From positions 1 to 39,416 of the forward strand of contig CALGLJ010000060.1 of assembly GCA_937930235.1 (NCBI GenBank): 39,416 nucleotides of DNA, given 5' to 3'. This document shows positions 19,512 to 33,196 of the stretch, piece after piece (the first letter of the stretch is position 1; each line of letters begins with the position of its first letter). The position numbers and the translations under genes were made by a program. The notes beneath the pieces were generated by a model, which worked only from the letters and a program-made list of their open reading frames with translations, was not told the origin of the DNA and did no database searches. This DNA is from an uncultured Verrucomicrobiales bacterium (GTDB lineage: Bacteria > Verrucomicrobiota > Verrucomicrobiia > Verrucomicrobiales > Akkermansiaceae).

Positions 19512-20741
19512 TTAACGTGCAACGACGTGTATTTTTTGAGAAATTTTACCCTCTTTATTAATCGAGAGAAGTTGTGCGAGCGCTTCTTTAGCGGAAGTAG
19601 GGCGCTTGGCTGGATTTTTATCGATCATTCCCATCACCCAAGCGCAGAGTTCTGTGGGGAGGTTGGCGTTGATGGCCGCGAGGTCGCGGACGTTGCCCTG
19701 CATGTGGGAGCACATCACGCTCAGAGGACTCTCTCCATTGAAGGGGCGTTCTCCACTGAGGCAGCGGTAGAACACACACCCGAGTGAGTAGATGTCTGAG
19801 CGTTCATTAAGAGGAGCTTCGCTGAGGAACTCGGGGCTGAGTGAGAAGATCGAACCCATGAGTCCTTCACCATTTGGAGGTTCTCCGGTCGTGGGGTGAG
19901 TTTTCAGGCGAGCGCGACCATAATCGATGAGTTTCACATGATAGCGGCCACTCAGTTGTGGGCTGACCATGATATTGGACGATTTGATATCGAGGTGGAG
20001 AAGGTCGGCATTGTGTGTTGCTTCCAGCCCCTCGAGGGATTGGATCGCGATGTCCATAAATTGGTCCGTTGAGAGCGGGCCTTTGGTGAGGAGTGCTTCG
20101 AGATCTTGTCCTTCGATAAGCTCCATGACGATGAAGCTCCCGTAGCCATCGACGCCAGCATCGTATGTGCTGATGACATTGGGGTGTCGGACGCGAGAAA
20201 CGGATTGGAGTTCAGAAAGGTAATCTCCTTTGATCCCTAAATCACCTTTGTCTTTAAAGCGTTTGATTGCGACTGGCCTTCTGAGAAGAGTATCGGTAGC
20301 GCGATAGACCATGGCAGTGCCTCCTTCTCCAATTTTGATTTCGTGAGTATACCGCTTGTCATCGATGATGTCAGTGGGGTCAGGATCTTCAGGAGGAATG
20401 AGGGGGTGATTGAGTTCAACGCTTTTGTATTTGGAAATTTCATCCGAAACAAAATCGGTTTTGTTTTTATCAGCGATCAGAGCAAAGTGAATGGCCTGCC
20501 CAAGATCGGTGATGAGAATGGAGAACTTTCCCATGTCGATGCGCAATTCATCACAGTCGCGGATGATTGATTTCATCGCTCCGAGAGTATTGATTCCGCG
20601 CTGAGCTATTTTTTGAATGGTCGTGACGCGATAATCGGAGGGCGCTTGCCCTGCGACCAGTTGAGCAAGCGGGGTGGTGATGAAGTTTGCATAAACTACA
20701 TCAATCCGATCAATCATCTGGACGATTTCTCTAGGTATCAC
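19512..20741 (-). CDS. Serine/threonine protein kinase with an uncharacterised N-terminal domain
   Basis: Hanks-type kinase in residues about 130-390: glycine loop G-E-G-G-T-A-M-V (138-145), ATP lysine K160, C-helix E177, catalytic loop H-L-D-I-K-S-S-N (249-256), D273-Y-G in place of the usual DFG, and S-P-E-F for the APE motif. It should be active, since the Asp, Asn and Lys are all present. There is no transmembrane helix, so it is cytoplasmic, unlike many bacterial PknB-type kinases. Residues 1-125 form a separate domain that I do not recognise, with a beta pattern S-I-L-I-T-D-L-G-x4-F-A-L-I-A-D. The GTG start lies one base after the stop of the small upstream gene, so the two form a unit; ATG codon 9 is an alternative start. 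Confidence 0.9.
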   Translation of the reverse strand: MIPREIVQMIDRIDVVYANFITTPLAQLVAGQAPSDYRVTTIQKIAQRGINTLGAMKSIIRDCDELRIDMGKFSILITDLGQAIHFALIADKNKTDFVSDEISKYKSVELNHPLIPPEDPDPTDIIDDKRYTHEIKIGEGGTAMVYRATDTLLRRPVAIKRFKDKGDLGIKGDYLSELQSVSRVRHPNVISTYDAGVDGYGSFIVMELIEGQDLEALLTKGPLSTDQFMDIAIQSLEGLEATHNADLLHLDIKSSNIMVSPQLSGRYHVKLIDYGRARLKTHPTTGEPPNGEGLMGSIFSLSPEFLSEAPLNERSDIYSLGCVFYRCLSGERPFNGESPLSVMCSHMQGNVRDLAAINANLPTELCAWVMGMIDKNPAKRPTSAKEALAQLLSINKEGKISQKIHVVAR

Positions 20742-20742
20742 G

Positions 20743-21126
20743 TCAGTATTGGGCGGTAAGGAAGTCTTCCATCGCAGAAGAAGATGCTTCGGGTTTCGTG
20801 ATCAGACCAAAAACTCGACATTCTGAGTGATCTTCCTCGTCGGCTCCTGAGTTCTCATCGTTGAGGCCGATGGAAAAAAGCATGAACTTCTTTTTGGAAG
20901 AAGAAGCAATGATCGAGTCGGGGGCGGGGAGTCCTGCTTTTCGAGCAAGTGCGGTAGCCCAATCGATCGCGGCTACGGTATGCTGCTTAGCGCGTTCTGC
21001 TTTTTTGGAAGTGGAATGGACCATTTGGAAGTCCACATCAGTTTGAAAAAAATCATGAACATCTGGATGTTCCGTGATTTCATCAATCGCGATGGGAGAT
21101 GGTGAATGGTCAGTTGGGTTTTTCAC
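20743..21126 (-). CDS. Hypothetical protein, probable partner of the adjacent kinase
   Basis: A 127-residue soluble protein with no recognised family, no signal peptide and no membrane helix. It is acidic at both ends, and a Lys-rich S-S-S-K-K-K-F-M-L-F-S-I-G-L segment in the middle suggests a small alpha/beta domain. It ends one base before the kinase start codon and begins 109 bp after nuoF, all on one strand. A role as substrate, adaptor or regulator of the kinase is inferred from that spacing. Its many Ser/Thr residues would suit a phosphorylation target. Confidence 0.65.
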   Translation of the reverse strand: MKNPTDHSPSPIAIDEITEHPDVHDFFQTDVDFQMVHSTSKKAERAKQHTVAAIDWATALARKAGLPAPDSIIASSSKKKFMLFSIGLNDENSGADEEDHSECRVFGLITKPEASSSAMEDFLTAQY

Positions 21127-21235: not shown

Positions 21236-22633
21236 TCAAGATGAGATCAGGAATTTTTCCCGTTCCTGTTGTTCCGGAGATTTGAACTCATTTTCCTCCG
21301 AGGTCTCTGCGATGAGTTCATCGCGATATTTGTCAATCATCGCTTCTACAGGCCATGCGCTGGCTTCACCGAATGCACAAATGGTTTTGCCATCAATCTG
21401 GTATGCAACTTCTTCGAGCGTTTTTACATCATCAGGAGTCGCATTTCCTTCTAAAATACGGTCGGAAATTTTCCTCATCCAAGTGGAACCCTCACGGCAC
21501 GGAGTGCATTGGCCACAGGATTCGTGTGCATAGAAATGTGTGATGTTATTGAGCACCCAGGAGATTTTTCGAGAATCATCGAGAACAATGACTCCTCCTG
21601 AGCCTGCCATGGAGCCTGCCTCTGCGAGGGTGTCAAAGTCGAGTGGTAGATCCCAGAAGCTGAGTTCTTTGGCCTCATCTCCGCGACCGATGCTGAAGGA
21701 TTCATTACAGCGGAGAATCTTCGAAGAAGATCCACCGGGAATGACGGCTTTGAACTCTCGTCCGTCTTTCGGGCCACCGCACATGTCGTAGATGAGTTCG
21801 CGGAAGGTGATTTTGCCCACTTGGACTTCGAAGTAACCAGGATGTTTCACGTCGCCAGAAACGCAGAGAATTCTGGTGCCAGAATTGCGTGGAGTTCCTA
21901 GTTTAACATATTCTTCTCCTCCCATCCTCAGGATGTGAACCACGTGGCAAAGGGATTCGACATTGTTCACGATGGTAGGGCACATGTAGAGGCCCATGGC
22001 CGCGGGAAAATAGGGAGGCTTGATGCGAGGATAAGCGCGCTTGCCTTCGAGGGATTCGATGAGGCCAGTTTCTTCACCACAGATGTATGCTGCAGCGCCA
22101 CGATGGACATAGATTTCGAGATCAAAACCAGATCCTTGGATATTTTGGCCGAGGAAGCCTTTTTCACGGGCTTCGGCGATGGCTTTTTCAAGGATGATGG
22201 CCGCTTCAGGGAATTCTTCGCGAATGTATATGTAGGCGGTGTGCGCTCCGACGGCGAAGGCTGAAATGACCATGCCTTCGATGAGCATGTGGGGGTCTTG
22301 ATGAACGATGTAGCGATCCTTAAATGTTCCCGGTTCAGATTCATCTGCATTGCAGATCAGGTAAACGGGTTTGGTGTTGTTGGGGGGAATGAATCCCCAC
22401 TTGATCCCAGTCGGGAATCCCGCTCCTCCACGTCCACGCAGGCCGGAGGTTTTGACTTCTCCGATGATGGCCTTCGGGTCCATGGTGAGACCTTTCTTGA
22501 GCATTTCATATCCACCATCATTCAAATATGTATCGATGGATTGATCCCAGCCTTCGCGGTCGACATTTTTAAAAATGAGGCGGTGTTCGTTGGCGTGAGG
22601 CTCTTTACCGGGAAGATATTTGATGTCGCTCAT
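21236..22633 (-). CDS. nuoF: NADH-quinone oxidoreductase subunit F
   Basis: NuoF is the NADH- and FMN-binding 51-kDa subunit of complex I, with one [4Fe-4S] cluster (N3), in the peripheral arm on the cytoplasmic side. It has 465 residues. The FMN/NADH glycine-rich segment is S-G-L-R-G-R-G-G-A-G-F-P-T-G-x-K-W (63-79), followed by N-A-D-E-S-E-P-G-T and I-C-G-E-E-T-G. The cluster cysteines are C373-G-Q-C376-T-P-C379 and C419. The C-terminal 25 residues are charged and unconserved. It lies 24 bp after nuoE. nuoG, the usual next gene, is replaced downstream by a hypothetical protein and a kinase. Confidence 0.97.
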   Translation of the reverse strand: MSDIKYLPGKEPHANEHRLIFKNVDREGWDQSIDTYLNDGGYEMLKKGLTMDPKAIIGEVKTSGLRGRGGAGFPTGIKWGFIPPNNTKPVYLICNADESEPGTFKDRYIVHQDPHMLIEGMVISAFAVGAHTAYIYIREEFPEAAIILEKAIAEAREKGFLGQNIQGSGFDLEIYVHRGAAAYICGEETGLIESLEGKRAYPRIKPPYFPAAMGLYMCPTIVNNVESLCHVVHILRMGGEEYVKLGTPRNSGTRILCVSGDVKHPGYFEVQVGKITFRELIYDMCGGPKDGREFKAVIPGGSSSKILRCNESFSIGRGDEAKELSFWDLPLDFDTLAEAGSMAGSGGVIVLDDSRKISWVLNNITHFYAHESCGQCTPCREGSTWMRKISDRILEGNATPDDVKTLEEVAYQIDGKTICAFGEASAWPVEAMIDKYRDELIAETSEENEFKSPEQQEREKFLISS

Positions 22634-22657: not shown

Positions 22658-23605
22658 TTAAGCGTTTTGGTAGGAGTCGAGAAGGGCCTGGGCTTTGTCC
22701 GCCGTGATTCCTTCGTGAAAGTCGTCATTGACGAGGCAGACTGGGGCGGTGCCGCAGGAGGCGAGACACTCGGCGTATTCAACGGAGAAGTTTCCACAAG
22801 GAGAGACGGAGATGGTGTCTTTGTGGCCGTCTTCTTGTGAGCGGTCGATTTTTGTGATTTCACAGAGCTTGTCCATGAGTTCGTAGGAGCCTCCCATGGC
22901 ACAGGAAAGAGTCCGGCAGACCCGGACGTGGAGTTTACCGGGAGCCTTTTGGCGGAATCCGGGGTAGAAGGTGACCACTTCGACAACTTTCATCGGCTCA
23001 AGGTTGAGCTTATTCGCAACCCAATCGATGGATTCTGGGCTGATGAAGCCGAAATGATGTTGTACTTCGTGAAGGAGTGGCAGGACGGCGGAGCGAGTTT
23101 GATCTGCAGGGTATTGGGCGATTCTCTGGTCGGCCTTGGCTTCGAGTTCAGGGGTGATTTCGAAGCATGGGAAGTTCACGGCACCAGGGGTGATGGGCGA
23201 GTGGATGTTTCTCTCAAGAGCCGTGAGTTGAGGTTCGGAGTATTCGACCTTGGAGCGGTCAATCGGGCACGGCTTTGGAATCACTCCCGCAGAGCACAGG
23301 TAGTGGAGTTTACTACGATCAATGAGAGCAGGTTTTGGCACGACTACTCCGAGAGAACGATAGCGGAGTTTGCTACGATCAATGCAAGCAGGCTTTGGCA
23401 CCGCAGTCCCGAGAGAGTGGTAACGGAGTTTACTGCGATCAATCGGAGCGGGCCGGGGAACTTTTGGAGAAGATTGTTTCTGATCGAAGTAGATCAGTCT
23501 AGCACGATCAATCAACGCGGGAGTGGGCACTATGCTGGCAGTGCGATAAGAGACTCGGCTGCGATTGATGGGACGCGGTTTGGGGACTTCGATGTTTGAG
23601 TTCAC
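22658..23605 (-). CDS. nuoE: NADH-quinone oxidoreductase subunit E with N-terminal tandem-repeat extension
   Basis: Residues about 145-315 are a standard NuoE (24-kDa) subunit. It has a helical start (Y-P-A-D-Q-T-R-S-A-V-L-P-L-L-H), V-V-T-F-Y-P-G-F and the thioredoxin-like [2Fe-2S] site C230-x4-C235, C280-x3-C284. This cluster (N1a) sits beside the FMN of NuoF. Ahead of it are about 140 extra residues: six tandem repeats of 19-23 residues with the core V-P-K-P-x-x-I-D-R-S-K-L-x-Y, starting at residues 7, 26, 49, 69, 89 and 109. The repeats are basic, lack hydrophobic helices and look like neither a signal peptide nor a known domain. The first codon is GTG, just after an in-frame TAA. A GTG at residue 143 could start a normal-length NuoE, but synonymous differences between repeats argue that the extension is translated. 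Confidence 0.93.
   Translation of the reverse strand: MNSNIEVPKPRPINRSRVSYRTASIVPTPALIDRARLIYFDQKQSSPKVPRPAPIDRSKLRYHSLGTAVPKPACIDRSKLRYRSLGVVVPKPALIDRSKLHYLCSAGVIPKPCPIDRSKVEYSEPQLTALERNIHSPITPGAVNFPCFEITPELEAKADQRIAQYPADQTRSAVLPLLHEVQHHFGFISPESIDWVANKLNLEPMKVVEVVTFYPGFRQKAPGKLHVRVCRTLSCAMGGSYELMDKLCEITKIDRSQEDGHKDTISVSPCGNFSVEYAECLASCGTAPVCLVNDDFHEGITADKAQALLDSYQNA
23231..23587 (-). repeat. Six in-frame tandem repeats (about 60 bp) within nuoE
   Basis: The repeats encode V/I-P-x-P-x-x-I-D/N-R-S/A-K/R-L/V-x-Y with unit starts 57, 69, 60, 60 and 60 bp apart. In the three most similar neighbours the I-D-R-S-K-L core differs only by synonymous bases (AGT/AGC, CGT/CGC), followed by CGT/CGC for Arg (His in the third) and TAT/TAC for Tyr. 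They are coding repeats, without the conserved-repeat/variable-spacer pattern of CRISPR. Confidence 0.9.
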
Positions 23606-23641: not shown

Positions 23642-24895
23642 TTAACGATCGCACTCACCCATGACGAAGTCGAGAGAGCCGAGAATAGCAGGGATGTCAG
23701 AGACCATATGGCCTTTGAGTAGTTCAGAGCAGATGCCGAGATTGACGAAAGATGGGGCGCGGATTTTGAGGCGGTAGGGAACGCCTCCTCCTTTGGAGTG
23801 GATGTAAAATCCAAGTTCTCCCTTTGGATTTTCGGCGGCGAAGTAGACTTCTCCCTCGGGAGCCTCAATGCCTTGAGTGGCGACGATGAAATGGTGAATC
23901 AGCTCCTCCATACTCATGAGCACTCGTTCCTTATCGGGGAGGGTTGACTTAGAGTTGACGACATTGATGTCGCCTTCTGGGAAGTCGGCGAGGACTTGGC
24001 GGATGATTTTGATCGACTGCCGCATCTCTTCCATTCGGACGAGGTAGCGATCATAGCAATCTCCATTTTCACCGATGGGGACGTCAAAGTCATACTGCTC
24101 ATAGCCGAGGTAGGGGCTGTCTTTTCTCAAGTCGCGGTCCACTCCGCAGGCACGAAGGTTTGGTCCAGTCATGCCGTAGCTGATCGCGTCTTCCCGGCTG
24201 ATGACCCCGACGTCGCACATTCTCTCAAGATAGATTTTGTTCTTATCGAGGAGGCTAGAAATTTCATCAATGGTGTTGGAGCACTCATCAAGGAATTTGA
24301 GGATGTCTTGATCGAGCCCTTCAGGAAGGTCGCGCAATTGGCCTCCAACGCGGGTGTAGGATGTGGTGAAGCGCGCCCCGGTGAGTTGCTCGCAGAAGTT
24401 GTAAATTTTTTCGCGTTCGGCGAAGGTGTAGAGGAAAACGGTCATCGCACCGACGTCCATGGCGCAGACCCCAACCCCGAGCATGTGTGATGAAATGCGG
24501 GCGAGTTCGCAGCAGAGTACTCGAAGAGCCTGTCCCCGTGGAGGGAGTTCCCATCCCATGAGCTTTTCTACGGTACAGGCGTAGGCGACGTTGTTGGCCA
24601 GAGGAGCAAGGTAGTCGAGTCGATCCGTGTATGGGATAAACTGATTGTAGTGCATGTTCTCCGCGATCTTTTCATCACCACGATGCAGGTAGCCGATATG
24701 AGGTTCTGCTTTTTCAATAATCTCCCCATCAAGTTCCAGCACAAGGCGCAGCACCCCATGGGTGGCTGGATGAGAGGGGCCCATATTCAGAACCATTTTT
24801 TCGCCGAGAACATCGTCGGTCTCAGCTTGATAATGATCTGCTGCTTTTGCCGATTTTGCGGCGGCATCCGGGGCCTCGTAAGTGGTGGTGCTCAT
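23642..24895 (-). CDS. nuoD: NADH-quinone oxidoreductase subunit D
   Basis: NuoD is the 49-kDa complex I subunit that lines the quinone pocket together with NuoB. It has 417 residues. Diagnostic segments are G-P-S-H-P-A-T-H-G (39-47) with the quinone-pocket histidine, H-I-G-Y-L-H-R-G (66-73), Y-T-D-R-L-D-Y, T-G-A-R-F-T-T-S-Y-T-R-V-G-G, Y-D-R-Y-L-V-R-M-E-E-M and the C terminus I-L-G-S-L-D-F-V-M-G-E-C-D-R. It is not fused to NuoC. It heads a nuoD-nuoE-nuoF transcript (36 and 24 bp gaps). The gene upstream is a lipoprotein rather than nuoC, so the rest of complex I must lie elsewhere. A CRP-type palindrome sits 49-68 bp ahead of the start. Confidence 0.97.
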   Translation of the reverse strand: MSTTTYEAPDAAAKSAKAADHYQAETDDVLGEKMVLNMGPSHPATHGVLRLVLELDGEIIEKAEPHIGYLHRGDEKIAENMHYNQFIPYTDRLDYLAPLANNVAYACTVEKLMGWELPPRGQALRVLCCELARISSHMLGVGVCAMDVGAMTVFLYTFAEREKIYNFCEQLTGARFTTSYTRVGGQLRDLPEGLDQDILKFLDECSNTIDEISSLLDKNKIYLERMCDVGVISREDAISYGMTGPNLRACGVDRDLRKDSPYLGYEQYDFDVPIGENGDCYDRYLVRMEEMRQSIKIIRQVLADFPEGDINVVNSKSTLPDKERVLMSMEELIHHFIVATQGIEAPEGEVYFAAENPKGELGFYIHSKGGGVPYRLKIRAPSFVNLGICSELLKGHMVSDIPAILGSLDFVMGECDR

Positions 24896-24994: not shown

Positions 24995-25507
24995 TTAGAA
25001 GCTGTTGGTCGGGAGCAGGCTGACGGATTTTGGATTGTATCGATCGGCTGGTGAAAAGAGCCACCCAGGGTTTTTATTCATGAGTTTGTAGCCCGTGAGC
25101 TTGAATTCAGGGAGGAATTGGTTGCTATTCGGTTCATAGAGCGTTCGTCCGGTGTAGCGTCCTCGAATTTGGTATTCGTAATTTTGGTCAAATCCATAGC
25201 GTCTGCCGGCAGGACCATCTTCAGGAAAGCGATCGGGGTTGAGTTTGCTGCTTTCGTTAAAAATAACCAATTTTGCGGTGTTCCAGGATGTTCCAGGTCG
25301 TCTCAGGTAGCCCCAGAATCGGGTTTTGGGGACGTAGTAGCGGCGGCCATAGTAAAAGCTTCCGCGTTCTTCAGTTGCGATTTGCTGTTTACGGACTTCT
25401 GGAGTGGGGAATCGACCCAAGTTGCCACTCGCACTGGGGGAGGAGGAGCTAGAGCTACAGGAGCTGAGCGCTAAAACGGGTAAGCATAAGAAGATGAGCG
25501 AACGCAT
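24995..25507 (-). CDS. Small lipoprotein of unknown function
   Basis: From the ATG at 25507 the protein begins with a 16-residue lipoprotein signal ending A-L-S-S-C. A longer start at 25555 would place 16 basic residues ahead of it and is less likely. After the lipid cysteine comes a poly-Ser linker. Then follows a basic, Tyr/Arg-rich domain with G-S-F-Y-Y-G-R-R-Y-Y-V-P-K-T-R-F-W-G-Y and Y-E-Y-Q-I-R-G-R-Y-T-G-R. I do not recognise the family. The protein is probably anchored to the inner face of the outer membrane. It is upstream of nuoD on the same strand but separated by 99 bp with the palindrome, so it is likely a separate unit. Confidence 0.72.
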   Translation of the reverse strand: MRSLIFLCLPVLALSSCSSSSSSPSASGNLGRFPTPEVRKQQIATEERGSFYYGRRYYVPKTRFWGYLRRPGTSWNTAKLVIFNESSKLNPDRFPEDGPAGRRYGFDQNYEYQIRGRYTGRTLYEPNSNQFLPEFKLTGYKLMNKNPGWLFSPADRYNPKSVSLLPTNSF

Positions 25508-25736
25508 AAGAATGAGGATTCTCCTTTTTGGGAAAGGGGTGGTCAAGCTTCGCATGTCCTGAAGGTGAGATGGAGGGCTATGATTTGAGAGAGGAAATTT
25601 CCTTCAATTCGACAGGGTGTTTTCTATGGAACTGATTGATTGAGAGTGTGATTCAAATTTTATTCCTTATGTCAAAGGCGTCTTGTCCGAGTGATTGCTC
25701 TTGAATCTTGTTGGCTGAAACCTTAGCAGACCCACC

Positions 25737-29171: not shown

Positions 29172-31181
29172 ATGTCCACGTGGAATGAGGATCGCTTGGA
29201 GCTCGCTTTTCGAGCTTCAAAGGAAGGGATTTGGGATTGGAACTTGGAAAAGGGGACGATGTTCTACTCGGGACGAACCCTGCGTTTTTTAGGGTATCGC
29301 CGCGACGAGGCGCCTCACCTGTTTCATCATTGTGAGACTCTCATGGATGAGGCCTCCGCGGAGGCCATGAAAAAGGCGCTTGCTGACGTGCATGCTGAAG
29401 AGACTGATCTTTTTGCGGTAGAGCCACGTGTGAAGACGAAACGAGGGAAGTGGAAATGGTTTCGCTTACGCGGGACTCCCGTGCGAGATAATGAAGGCAA
29501 AGTCCTGCGGCTTGTGGGGTCCGTGATTGATATTTCCCAGCGGAAAGTGGCTGAGATGGATCTGGCCGAAGAAAAATCATTGATGGAAATTTTGGCCGAA
29601 AATATTTCCATGAATGTTTTCTTCAAAGATGTCGAGTCGCGCTTTGTCATGGCCAATACGCCGACGGCTCAAAAAATGGGCCTCTCCTCAGTCTCGGAAC
29701 TCATTGGTCGCACCGATAACGATTTTTTCTCCAAAGCTCATGCGGAGGAATCGCGCCTGCTGGATCAAGCCATCATGAAGAGCGGGAAGGGGAGGGAAAA
29801 AATCCTCGTCTCCGAGCAGTGGGAGGGAAAAGAAGACACCTGGGCGATCACGACCAAGCAGCCATGGGTGGGGCAGGATGGGAAATTAAAAGGCACCTTT
29901 GGAGTCACCAGTGATGTCACTGAATTCATCCAAGCGCAGCGTGAGCAAGAGCGGGTGGCCTCTGAACTCAATCAGACGAATAAGCTCATCGAAGAAGAAC
30001 GCCATCTTCTCCGGCTGGTCATCGATAATGTGCCTCTGAATGTTTATTTTAAAGACCGGGACTCATCATTTGTCCTCGTCAATCAAGCAATGGCGCACTG
30101 GTTGGGAAAAGAAAAACCAGAAGATCTCCAAGGGAAAAGTGATCAGGACTTTTTCTCAGAAGAACATTGGCGAGCCGCGGCAGAAGATGAGCGCAAGATC
30201 ATGGAGACTGGTGAGGCGATGCAGGGGACGGTGGAACGTGAGACCTGGAGTGGAAAGAGTGATACTTGGGTCATGACCTCGAAGTATCCTTGGATCGATG
30301 CCGATGGGCAAATTTTGGGGACATTTGGAGTTTCCAATGATGTCAGTGATCTCGTGCGGGCCCAGCGAGACCTCGCTTCCTTGGCCGAGACTCTGCATGA
30401 GAAAAACCGGGAAATGGAAGAGGAACTGAGTCTGGCGCGTGAAGTCCAGCAGGCGTTGATCCCGGAGGAACTCCCGGTCTTTTCTGGATGGGGGAAGAAT
30501 GGCGAGGGGCGTTTGGAATTTTGCCACCTTTATCAGCCCGCTTCTGAGCTTGCCGGTGATTTTTTTGAAGTCTTACCCCTCGGGGGAGACAAGGTCGGGT
30601 TTCTGGTTTGTGATGTGATGGGGCATGGAGTGCGCTCGGCGCTGGTGGTGTCGATGCTTCGTGGTTTGATCGAAAAACAAGAAAAAGCAGTGACAGATGC
30701 GGGCGAACTTTTAACTGGTCTGAATCAAGGGCTCACCCACTTGTTAGAGAAATCAGGAGTGAGCCTTTTTGCAACGGCAGTATGTGGGATCGTGGATCTG
30801 GCTAATGAGACCTTTCAGCTTTCTCTCGCGGGGCACCCAAATCCCATTGCCGTCTTTCGTGATGGCGTGCGCCAGCTCTCACCACCCGCGGAGGTGAAGG
30901 GGCCAGCTCTGGGAATGATCGAGGAGGTGACTTATAAGGCGGTCACCGTTCAGGCTGCTGGTTTACTCCGCGTGATTTCTTTCACGGATGGTCTCGTGGA
31001 AGCAGAAAATGAAGATGGGGAAGAATTTGGAATTCATCGAATGGTGGAAAAAATTGAACAAGGAGGGCGGCTTCAATCTCTTTTGAATAACCTGGTGAAG
31101 GAAGCGTCTCAGTTTTCGGGAAAAGAATTTTTTGATGATGATGTGTGCCTGCTAGCGCTCGAACTGACAAACCCTTCATGA
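29172..31181 (+). CDS. PAS-PAS-PAS-SpoIIE (PP2C) serine phosphatase, first copy
   Basis: A 669-residue cytoplasmic RsbU-type protein with no membrane helix. Three PAS/PAC units cover about 5-125, 130-255 and 270-395. They end in V-G-S-V-I-D-I-S, G-T-F-G-V-T-S-D-V-T and G-T-F-G-V-S-N-D-V-S. Units 2 and 3 share the pattern N-V-x-F-K-D and a D-F-F segment. A coiled linker with L-A-R-E-V-Q-Q-A-L-I-P leads to the SpoIIE phosphatase domain with A-G-D-F-F-E-V, C-D-V-M-G-H-G-V-R-S-A, A-G-H-P-N-P, F-T-D-G-L-V-E and F-D-D-D-V-C. Such enzymes usually dephosphorylate an anti-anti-sigma (STAS) factor; none is nearby. The stop overlaps the start of the second copy. Confidence 0.92.
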   Translation: MSTWNEDRLELAFRASKEGIWDWNLEKGTMFYSGRTLRFLGYRRDEAPHLFHHCETLMDEASAEAMKKALADVHAEETDLFAVEPRVKTKRGKWKWFRLRGTPVRDNEGKVLRLVGSVIDISQRKVAEMDLAEEKSLMEILAENISMNVFFKDVESRFVMANTPTAQKMGLSSVSELIGRTDNDFFSKAHAEESRLLDQAIMKSGKGREKILVSEQWEGKEDTWAITTKQPWVGQDGKLKGTFGVTSDVTEFIQAQREQERVASELNQTNKLIEEERHLLRLVIDNVPLNVYFKDRDSSFVLVNQAMAHWLGKEKPEDLQGKSDQDFFSEEHWRAAAEDERKIMETGEAMQGTVERETWSGKSDTWVMTSKYPWIDADGQILGTFGVSNDVSDLVRAQRDLASLAETLHEKNREMEEELSLAREVQQALIPEELPVFSGWGKNGEGRLEFCHLYQPASELAGDFFEVLPLGGDKVGFLVCDVMGHGVRSALVVSMLRGLIEKQEKAVTDAGELLTGLNQGLTHLLEKSGVSLFATAVCGIVDLANETFQLSLAGHPNPIAVFRDGVRQLSPPAEVKGPALGMIEEVTYKAVTVQAAGLLRVISFTDGLVEAENEDGEEFGIHRMVEKIEQGGRLQSLLNNLVKEASQFSGKEFFDDDVCLLALELTNPS

Positions 31182-33196
31182 AATTTGCTAAAAAAGACGA
31201 GGACGACCGCCTCGAACTCGCTCTCAAAGCATCCAATGAAGGAGTGTGGGATTGGGATTTACTGGCGGGAGAGATCTTTTATTCAAACCGGGTCTTGGGA
31301 TTTCTGGGCTATGGCCAAGTGGATGCTCCTAATATTTTCACCAAGCTCGATGAGCACGTTCACCCGGATCACCTTGCCGCCTTTCAAAGGAAACTCGAAC
31401 GCCTCCTCCATCGCAATGGGCGTCTATTAGCGATCGAACCCCAAATTAAAACGAAGGGCGGGGAGTGGAAATGGTTCCGAGTCAGAGCCACCCCTGTGCG
31501 CGATGAGGAAGGGCGCCTCATTCGCTTGGTGGGATCGATGATTGATATCTCAAAGCGAAAAAATACGGAAACCGCTCTCGCGGAAGAACAACAGCGCATC
31601 CGGCTCTTGTTCGAGAACATCCCCGTGAATATCTACTTCAAGGATGGTGAATCTCGTTTTGTCAGAGCGAATAAAGCGACTGCGCAGCGATTAGGCGCGA
31701 AATCCGTGACGGATCTCATCGGAAAGACTGACCATGATTTTTTTGAAGCAAAGCATGCGAATCTCGCACGTGCCTCGGAGGAGAAGATCATGCAAACCGG
31801 TGAAGCAATTTTAGAGACCCTTGAGCATGAAATTTGGGATGATGGGAAAGATACCTGGGTCCTTGTTTCGAAGTATCCCTGGCGGGGTGCTTATGGAGAA
31901 ATTAAAGGGACCTTTGGAATTACGGAAGACATGACCGAGCTGGTGAAAGCTCAGGAAAAGCTGGCAGCGGTGACCGCGCAACTCAGCGACATGAATCAGG
32001 ATATCGAGGAAGAGCGGCATTTGTTACGACTCGTCATCGATAATATTCCCATGTATGTTTACTTTAAGGATTTGGAGTCGAATTTCGTCCTCGCAAATCA
32101 AGGAATGTCTCGTTTGTTCGAGCTCAAAGATCCCCAGGAAATCGTGGGGAAACATGATCGCGATTTTTTTGGAGAACAGTATGCTGCAGTTGCCAGTGCC
32201 GATGAGAAAATCATCATGGAAAGCGGTGAACCTGTCCTCGGGCGCTTAGAAAAAATTCCGTGGGAAAGTGGACGGGTGACCTGGTCTTTGACCTCTAAAT
32301 TTCCCTGGTTTGATAAAGAAGGTCACATCACTGGAACCTTCGGCGTTTCAGGAGATGTCTCGAAGCTTGTGCAAACGCGCAATGAGCTAGAGAAGGTCGC
32401 AGAGGTATTGGCTCGTAAAAATCAAGCGATTCAAGAGGAGCTCAAGCTCGCTCGCGAGGTGCAGCAAGCGGCGATTCCAGAAACTCTTCCGAAATTTCGG
32501 ACCGATGACGTGGTTGCTTCATTTTATCACCGTTACGAACCGGCCTCTGATCTGGCGGGCGATTTTTTTGAAGTCATCCCGCTTGGTAATGACCGGGCTG
32601 GTTTTTTGGTTTGTGATGTGATGGGGCATGGGGTGCGTGCCGCGCTCATTGTGTCGATGCTTCGCGGGCTCATGGAGAAGGAGTTGAAGTACGCAGAAAA
32701 TCCCGGGCAATTTTTGACCAATCTGAACCGTGGTTTAAGCCACCTCTTTGAGCGCATTTCCTTGACCATGTTTGCCACTGCGATCTACGGGGTGGTTGAT
32801 CTGCATTCACGTGAAATCCGGATTTCTCTCGCTGGTCACCCCGCTCCTTTAGTGAAGCTGGGGGCCGAAATCAAAGAGTTACCAGTTGCCGCAGAAGATA
32901 AAGGTCCTGCTCTCGGGCTCATTCAAGAGAGTCAATATCGTGAGCAAAAAATCATCCTCAACCAAGATGTCGAAGCTCTGCTGTGTTTTACCGATGGGAT
33001 CTTAGAGGTGGAAAATGCTGAGAACGAAGAATTCGGAGTCTCTCGAATCCAAGAGGTTCTGACAAAAGCTACCGATCTACGATTAGGAATGGATCGTGTT
33101 CTTGAAGCGGGGAGAGCCCATGCCCGGGAAAAAAAATTCGCTGACGACATCTGTCTTTTAGGGCTCGAAATCCGATCTGCCAAGGTAGAGGCTTGA
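31178..33196 (+). CDS. PAS-PAS-PAS-SpoIIE (PP2C) serine phosphatase, second copy
   Basis: This is a paralogue of the preceding gene with the same three PAS units, coiled linker (L-A-R-E-V-Q-Q-A-A-I-P) and SpoIIE domain (A-G-D-F-F-E-V-I-P, C-D-V-M-G-H-G-V-R-A-A, A-G-H-P-A-P, F-T-D-G-I-L-E, F-A-D-D-I-C). The ATG at 31178 overlaps the upstream stop (ATGA) and aligns with the other copy's N terminus (D-x-R-L-E-L-A-x-x-A-S). An upstream GTG at 31145 would overlap by 37 bp and is rejected. Identity is high in the phosphatase core and the PAS ends, lower in ligand regions, suggesting the same output with different inputs after a tandem duplication. Confidence 0.92.
   Translation: MKFAKKDEDDRLELALKASNEGVWDWDLLAGEIFYSNRVLGFLGYGQVDAPNIFTKLDEHVHPDHLAAFQRKLERLLHRNGRLLAIEPQIKTKGGEWKWFRVRATPVRDEEGRLIRLVGSMIDISKRKNTETALAEEQQRIRLLFENIPVNIYFKDGESRFVRANKATAQRLGAKSVTDLIGKTDHDFFEAKHANLARASEEKIMQTGEAILETLEHEIWDDGKDTWVLVSKYPWRGAYGEIKGTFGITEDMTELVKAQEKLAAVTAQLSDMNQDIEEERHLLRLVIDNIPMYVYFKDLESNFVLANQGMSRLFELKDPQEIVGKHDRDFFGEQYAAVASADEKIIMESGEPVLGRLEKIPWESGRVTWSLTSKFPWFDKEGHITGTFGVSGDVSKLVQTRNELEKVAEVLARKNQAIQEELKLAREVQQAAIPETLPKFRTDDVVASFYHRYEPASDLAGDFFEVIPLGNDRAGFLVCDVMGHGVRAALIVSMLRGLMEKELKYAENPGQFLTNLNRGLSHLFERISLTMFATAIYGVVDLHSREIRISLAGHPAPLVKLGAEIKELPVAAEDKGPALGLIQESQYREQKIILNQDVEALLCFTDGILEVENAENEEFGVSRIQEVLTKATDLRLGMDRVLEAGRAHAREKKFADDICLLGLEIRSAKVEA

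Follow-up and report, generated by a model that had tools for sequence, protein, structure and literature searches.

Introduction

Three described systems lie closest to the locus reported here. In E. coli, the MoxR ATPase RavA and its VWA partner ViaA are connected with complex I. The passages of PMC3893208 on this interaction report that both proteins were pulled down with Nuo subunits, that NuoA and NuoF came with both RavA and ViaA under aerobic conditions, and that NuoE came weakly with RavA; a function in maturation is suggested there. The second system is the MoxR-DUF58-BatA (aerotolerance) operon. The third is NuoE itself, the 24 kDa subunit of complex I (PF01257), which is encoded between nuoD and nuoF.

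Our locus shares features with each of them. As for RavA-ViaA in the cited account (PMC3893208), a MoxR ATPase appears to be linked to complex I; here, however, the link is a common peptide motif, and MoxR sits with DUF58 and BatA-type genes. The gene order and Pfam domains of MoxR-DUF58-BatA operons are kept, whereas MoxR in the genus studied has its own N-terminal tail with the motif. The NuoE protein has the core domain, the conserved cysteines and the gene position of the 24 kDa subunit, but it bears in addition a tail of about 125 residues composed of repeated motifs. A literature search on N-terminal extensions of NuoE or MoxR, repeats in verrucomicrobial NuoE, and complex I or MoxR of Akkermansiaceae returned nothing on this tail, judged by title and the start of the abstract. 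We know of no answer to the question of how MoxR ATPases find their respiratory clients.

Results and Discussion

The nuoE Gene and Its Repeat Tail

The window, that is, the whole stretch of 39,416 nucleotides that was analysed, contains the following features around nuoE.

22658..23605, minus strand: nuoE, 315 aa, with a six-repeat tail; GTG start at 23605, assigned by comparison
23225..23587, minus strand: N-terminal tail, six copies of V-P-x-P-x-x-I-D-R-S-x-L-x-Y, residues 7 to 127
23168..23224, minus strand: NuoE leader TALERNIHSPITPGAVNFP, residues 128-146, alignable with tail-less relatives
22661..23167, minus strand: NuoE [2Fe-2S] thioredoxin-like core, residues 147-315, PF01257 at 159-313
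21236..22633, minus strand: nuoF, neighbour
23642..24895, minus strand: nuoD, neighbour

The gene is named here as a predicted NuoE from its Pfam match, the order nuoD-E-F and its alignment with relatives. PF01257 (2Fe-2S_thioredx) matched residues 159-313 with 132.3 bits against a curated cut-off of 24.8. The NCBIfam family TIGR01958 (nuoE_fam) gave 130.5 bits, which is under its curated cut-off of 142.4; because the tail lies outside this match, the short score is a matter of the core. The remaining eight NCBIfam matches were all under their own cut-offs. Residues C230, C235, C280 and C284 were invariant in all 24 aligned NuoE sequences, and their spacing, C-x4-C and C-x3-C, is that of the four NuoE cysteine ligands.

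No nuoABC or nuoG was seen by eye beside nuoDEF in the window. Upstream of nuoD lies a gene that looks lipoprotein-like by eye and has no Pfam match (24995..25555, minus strand); it is found at this place in 22 of 26 genus loci, and the other four loci stop short of that position. On the other side, a Ser/Thr kinase gene and a gene whose 127-aa product matches neither Pfam nor NCBIfam adjoin nuoF (19512..21126, minus strand). Among 22 loci, this pair stands beside nuoF only in the window and in its sister genome G011.

The six repeats begin at residues 7, 26, 49, 69, 89 and 109 of NuoE, at spacings of 19, 23, 20, 20 and 20 residues, so that repeats 3-6 follow an exact 60-bp period. A sequence-only reading of this DNA, which named no strand, had described six N-terminal repeats, four of them with near-exact 60-bp periodicity, and both descriptions hold. 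Tandem Repeats Finder (TRF) reported a single array at the tail (period 60, 2.7 copies, 78% matches), and the tail scored 137 for self-similarity at offsets of 19, 20 and 23, where none of 1000 shuffles went beyond 50. Codons for the conserved residues differ from copy to copy, as had been noted for neighbouring repeats. The tail is also basic, as had been said of the repeats: its calculated pI is 10.3 (residues 1-127), and that of the core is 5.05. It is probably disordered. A search of the PDB with the repeat profile gave a best match at chance level (E 4.4). The start of the window NuoE lies 146 residues ahead of the aligned core, compared with about 20-23 in family relatives; the tail therefore adds about 125 residues, which bears out the proposed extension and corrects its length of about 140.

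Copy Number and Restriction to the Genus

The genus set comprised 27 genomes, and NuoE was obtained from 26 of them (G015 gave a distant match only). Copies were counted with a matrix built from 28 hand-picked NuoE rows, at a score of at least 8. Under this scoring, 21 of the 26 genus NuoE proteins have one to six copies, so that absence from all relatives, which the sequence-only reading had named as evidence against itself, does not hold. The total is 50 copies, 30 of which are identical to matrix rows, which makes the count partly circular. The window has the highest number, six, and its sister G011 has one. Five genomes (G001, G007, G008, G010 and G017) have no copy above the score used, with a degenerate remnant of the tail in G008 and G017. 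In a tree of NuoD-E-F, in which several deep nodes are weak (bootstrap 37-64), these five fall on three branches, namely G001/G008/G017, G007 and G010. If the tail is assumed to be ancestral, the copy-less branches represent losses.

Outside the genus, NuoE proteins of the family begin straight with the short leader and have no tail, and the same scoring found no copies in the four outside NuoE sequences scored. Profile searches were made at three levels. Within the family, profile A1, built from the NuoE repeats only, matched 11 of 117 genomes at E ≤ 0.001, all within the genus; at this threshold it missed the genus members G001, G007 and G008, all of which have no NuoE copy. Within the order, profile A2 reached E ≤ 0.05 in 12 genus genomes and in two of 276 others (G159 and G122), in these two in frames of only 34 and 13 aa. 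The G159 match (E 5e-5, the 34-aa frame) was rejected, as it lies antisense within a phosphatase-like gene. Within the phylum, A2 at E ≤ 0.01 matched one of the 387 genomes drawn, the window's own. Plasmids searched with a 52-aa probe gave no match. Among the genomes searched, the motif is confined to the genus.

A Second Carrier: MoxR AAA+ ATPase

When A1 was run over the 27 genomes, only weak matches appeared beyond NuoE (E 0.02 and worse). Those in moxR came from G022 and G008 (E 0.02 each) and from G004, G010, G001 and G017 (E 0.26 to 0.63), and taken alone they are not significant. The motif common to the NuoE and MoxR tails is P-x-P-x-x-I-[DNTE]-x-x-(x)-[LV]-x-Y. The moxR gene was found in 22 of the 27 genus genomes, and the motif is present in all 22. 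The absences concern incomplete assemblies: G006, G015, G020 and G024 have lower-scoring paralogs only, and G023 has none at the cut-off. Profile A2 also matched moxR in 22 of 22, a result that is partly circular because A2 includes MoxR rows.

The NuoE-only matrix contains no MoxR rows, and with it each tail was compared with 500 shuffles. The scores of 17 of the 22 genus MoxR tails were reached by no shuffle, two by one and two by two of 500, and that of G014 by 131 of 500; in G014, the motif sits in the neighbouring frame, as after an assembly error. All seven MoxR tails from outside the genus were reached by 241 to 499 of 500 shuffles. The same matrix was run over 2220 open frames of at least 60 residues from the window and 31 loci. 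Ten frames other than NuoE scored above 12.1, and all ten are MoxR (eight genes, two of them present in two loci each). Next in rank are one unrelated frame scoring 12.1, a MoxR scoring 11.8 and six further unrelated frames scoring 10.5 to 6.6; the lowest MoxR tail, that of G011 at 5.2, falls under these seven unrelated frames.

In the genome of the window, moxR lies on contig C10, and its protein begins with two copies of the motif, VPRPASITKPVVY and VPSPAKITGPISY. The MoxR ATPase contains AAA_3 (207.4 bits) and AAA_lid_2 (47.9 bits), both above the cut-off. Its AAA part matched RavA weakly (E 8e-5), which makes RavA a remote relative; the RavA-specific domain is LARA. A 39-aa repeat probe found NuoE as its sole match in the window's genome. 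No third carrier was detected at a convincing score in the genus genomes, where the other A1 and A2 matches were at noise level; one weak A2 match recurred, in 394-aa frames of G008 (E 0.10) and G001 (E 0.13). In one subclade (L134, L137, L142, L143 and L149), MoxR opens with a long Lys/Ala-rich stretch, presumably resembling histone H1-like tails.

In the operon, moxR comes first; DUF58 and a BatA-type gene are next, and the gene of a large protein comes after them. This order is kept in the outside relatives G032-G034, where MoxR is without the tail. The position of moxR relative to nuoF is known as adjacent for only five of the 22 moxR genomes (G022, G008, G004, G001 and G017), in which it starts some 1.5 kb beyond the nuoF end; in G022 and G008, a TrhO-like gene lies between them on the opposite strand. 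In G005, moxR lies on the same contig, about 31 kb from nuoF.

A Proposed Docking Motif Common to NuoE and MoxR

With the motif common to NuoE and MoxR and no third carrier detected, the reading that we prefer is docking to one site. On this view, each NuoE repeat would be one short linear motif for docking, P-x-P-x-x-I-[D/N]-R-x-x-[L/V]-x-Y, in a tail placed ahead of NuoE. The NuoE and MoxR tails may share one binding site, for which the MoxR-DUF58-Bat machinery is the likeliest place, and the NuoE tail would bring this machinery to complex I, at its NADH-oxidising arm, for assembly or repair. Additional copies could raise avidity. We put this reading forward tentatively, at somewhat below even chances. 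In its broader form, which is our best reading of the sequences, the motif would bring complex I together either with the MoxR machinery or with a partner of both. Since all 22 genomes with the gene have the MoxR copy and five genomes lack one in NuoE, the basic element is probably the tail of MoxR, and NuoE would use the same site in trans. A more elaborate version, in which copy number tunes a docking code by which the MoxR machine recognises complex I through NuoE and the MoxR tail fills the same site as an in-cis competitor, is rather doubtful.

Partner binding had been among the uses suggested by the sequence-only reading. The presence of the same motif in MoxR makes this suggestion more likely, with binding itself still conjectural; tethering of complex I by the repeats is possible, and the interpretation as a whole is partly supported.

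Several results count against docking. Over 16 genomes, the NuoE and MoxR motif variants of one genome were no more alike than those of different genomes (p 0.10 by genome and 0.29 by clade); covariation of the two motifs was not significant. The five genomes in which no NuoE copy reaches the score used keep the MoxR motif, so the NuoE tail is dispensable there. Neither a binding site nor a reader of the motif was identified: in the window genome, DUF58, BatA and the third protein of the operon aligned nearly end to end with those of three outside relatives, and no large genus-specific insert showed. AlphaFold models were poor (mean pLDDT 58.6 and 58.7) and uninformative on contacts. The low score of the G011 MoxR tail and the remoteness of this MoxR from RavA also tell against docking.

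An alternative is a scaffold unrelated to chaperoning, such as a membrane, pole or supercomplex factor, which both tails would bind and which would co-localise complex I and the MoxR machinery. The common motif, the varying copy number and the lack of an identified reader among the MoxR operon proteins would all suit such a scaffold. Nothing specific speaks against it; however, the precedent of MoxR with complex I, as presented in PMC3893208, makes a direct link more economical, and we regard the scaffold as somewhat unlikely.

A motif common to one complex I subunit and one MoxR, and absent from the outside relatives examined, is a concrete peptide that can be tested. Natural genomes with zero to six copies provide a ready comparison series.

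Selection on the Tail

Among the repeats of the window, omega was 0.08-0.39 in eight of 15 pairs, and the other seven pairs were saturated. For orthologs, eight of the 11 two-copy NuoE proteins were picked by hand, and their tails gave omega values of 0.11-0.41 in 26 of 28 pairs; of the remaining two pairs, one is identical in the tail and one has an omega of 1.14 at a dS of 0.06. The cores of the same orthologs gave 0.02-0.12, and the tail values are several times higher. The tail is thus under purifying selection, which is moderate and weaker than that on the core. Selection on the peptide, which had been claimed from codon differences, is borne out, and neutral dN/dS was not seen in these 26 pairs. 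Over the 50 NuoE copies, the most constant residues are P4 (50), Y16 (48), R11 (45), I9 (44) and P6 (43), with Ser in 32; the matrix by which the rows were picked favours P4, Y16 and I9.

These values bear on a further explanation, that a fragment was copied between the two genes long ago and has since expanded and shrunk as a disordered tail that is mostly tolerated and has little function. The swing from six copies in the window to one in its sister and none on three branches agrees with this, as does the higher omega of the tail. However, P4, Y16 and I9 persist despite many codon changes (with the matrix favouring them), 26 of 28 ortholog pairs have an omega under 0.5, and the MoxR motif is present in 22 of 22. 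We consider a tolerated tail unlikely.

It had also been proposed that R-S-K is a conserved phospho-acceptor-like motif that might be phosphorylated, with a kinase in the same gene block as a clue. A Pkinase gene is indeed present at 19512-20741, and it might phosphorylate this Ser. However, neither part of the proposal is sustained: Ser occurs in 32 of 50 NuoE repeats and, by eye, in five of 22 MoxR tails, and the kinase stands beside nuoF in only two of 22 loci. Phosphorylation by the nearby kinase is very improbable.

Translation of the Tail

All 26 genus NuoE genes keep a GTG ahead of the tail, at the V of V-S-S, V-N-S or similar triplets, and in G012 and G024 it is the sole start codon of the open frame ahead of the core. 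The tail is very probably translated, because this GTG is kept throughout and is the only pre-core start codon in those two genomes. Family relatives outside the genus have an ATG start about 20-23 residues ahead of the core and run from it directly into the leader; together with the GTG kept ahead of the tail, this places the tail, on comparison of the sequences, between an old start and an old leader. That translation starts internally at codon 143 and the tail is never made is scarcely credible: there is a GTG at that codon, as had been pointed out, and every in-frame start as far as that codon is GTG or TTG (the first ATG is codon 205), but the pre-tail GTG is retained as described and selection acts on the tail peptide, both in the window repeats and in the orthologs.

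Two plus-strand regions of the window may be added. At 29172..33196, there are two adjoining long genes with similar sequences, which by eye combine a PAS-like sensor and a PP2C-like phosphatase. At 22928..23599, an open frame of 223 aa lies on the strand opposite the repeat tail and some of the NuoE core; it is perhaps a by-product of codon use.
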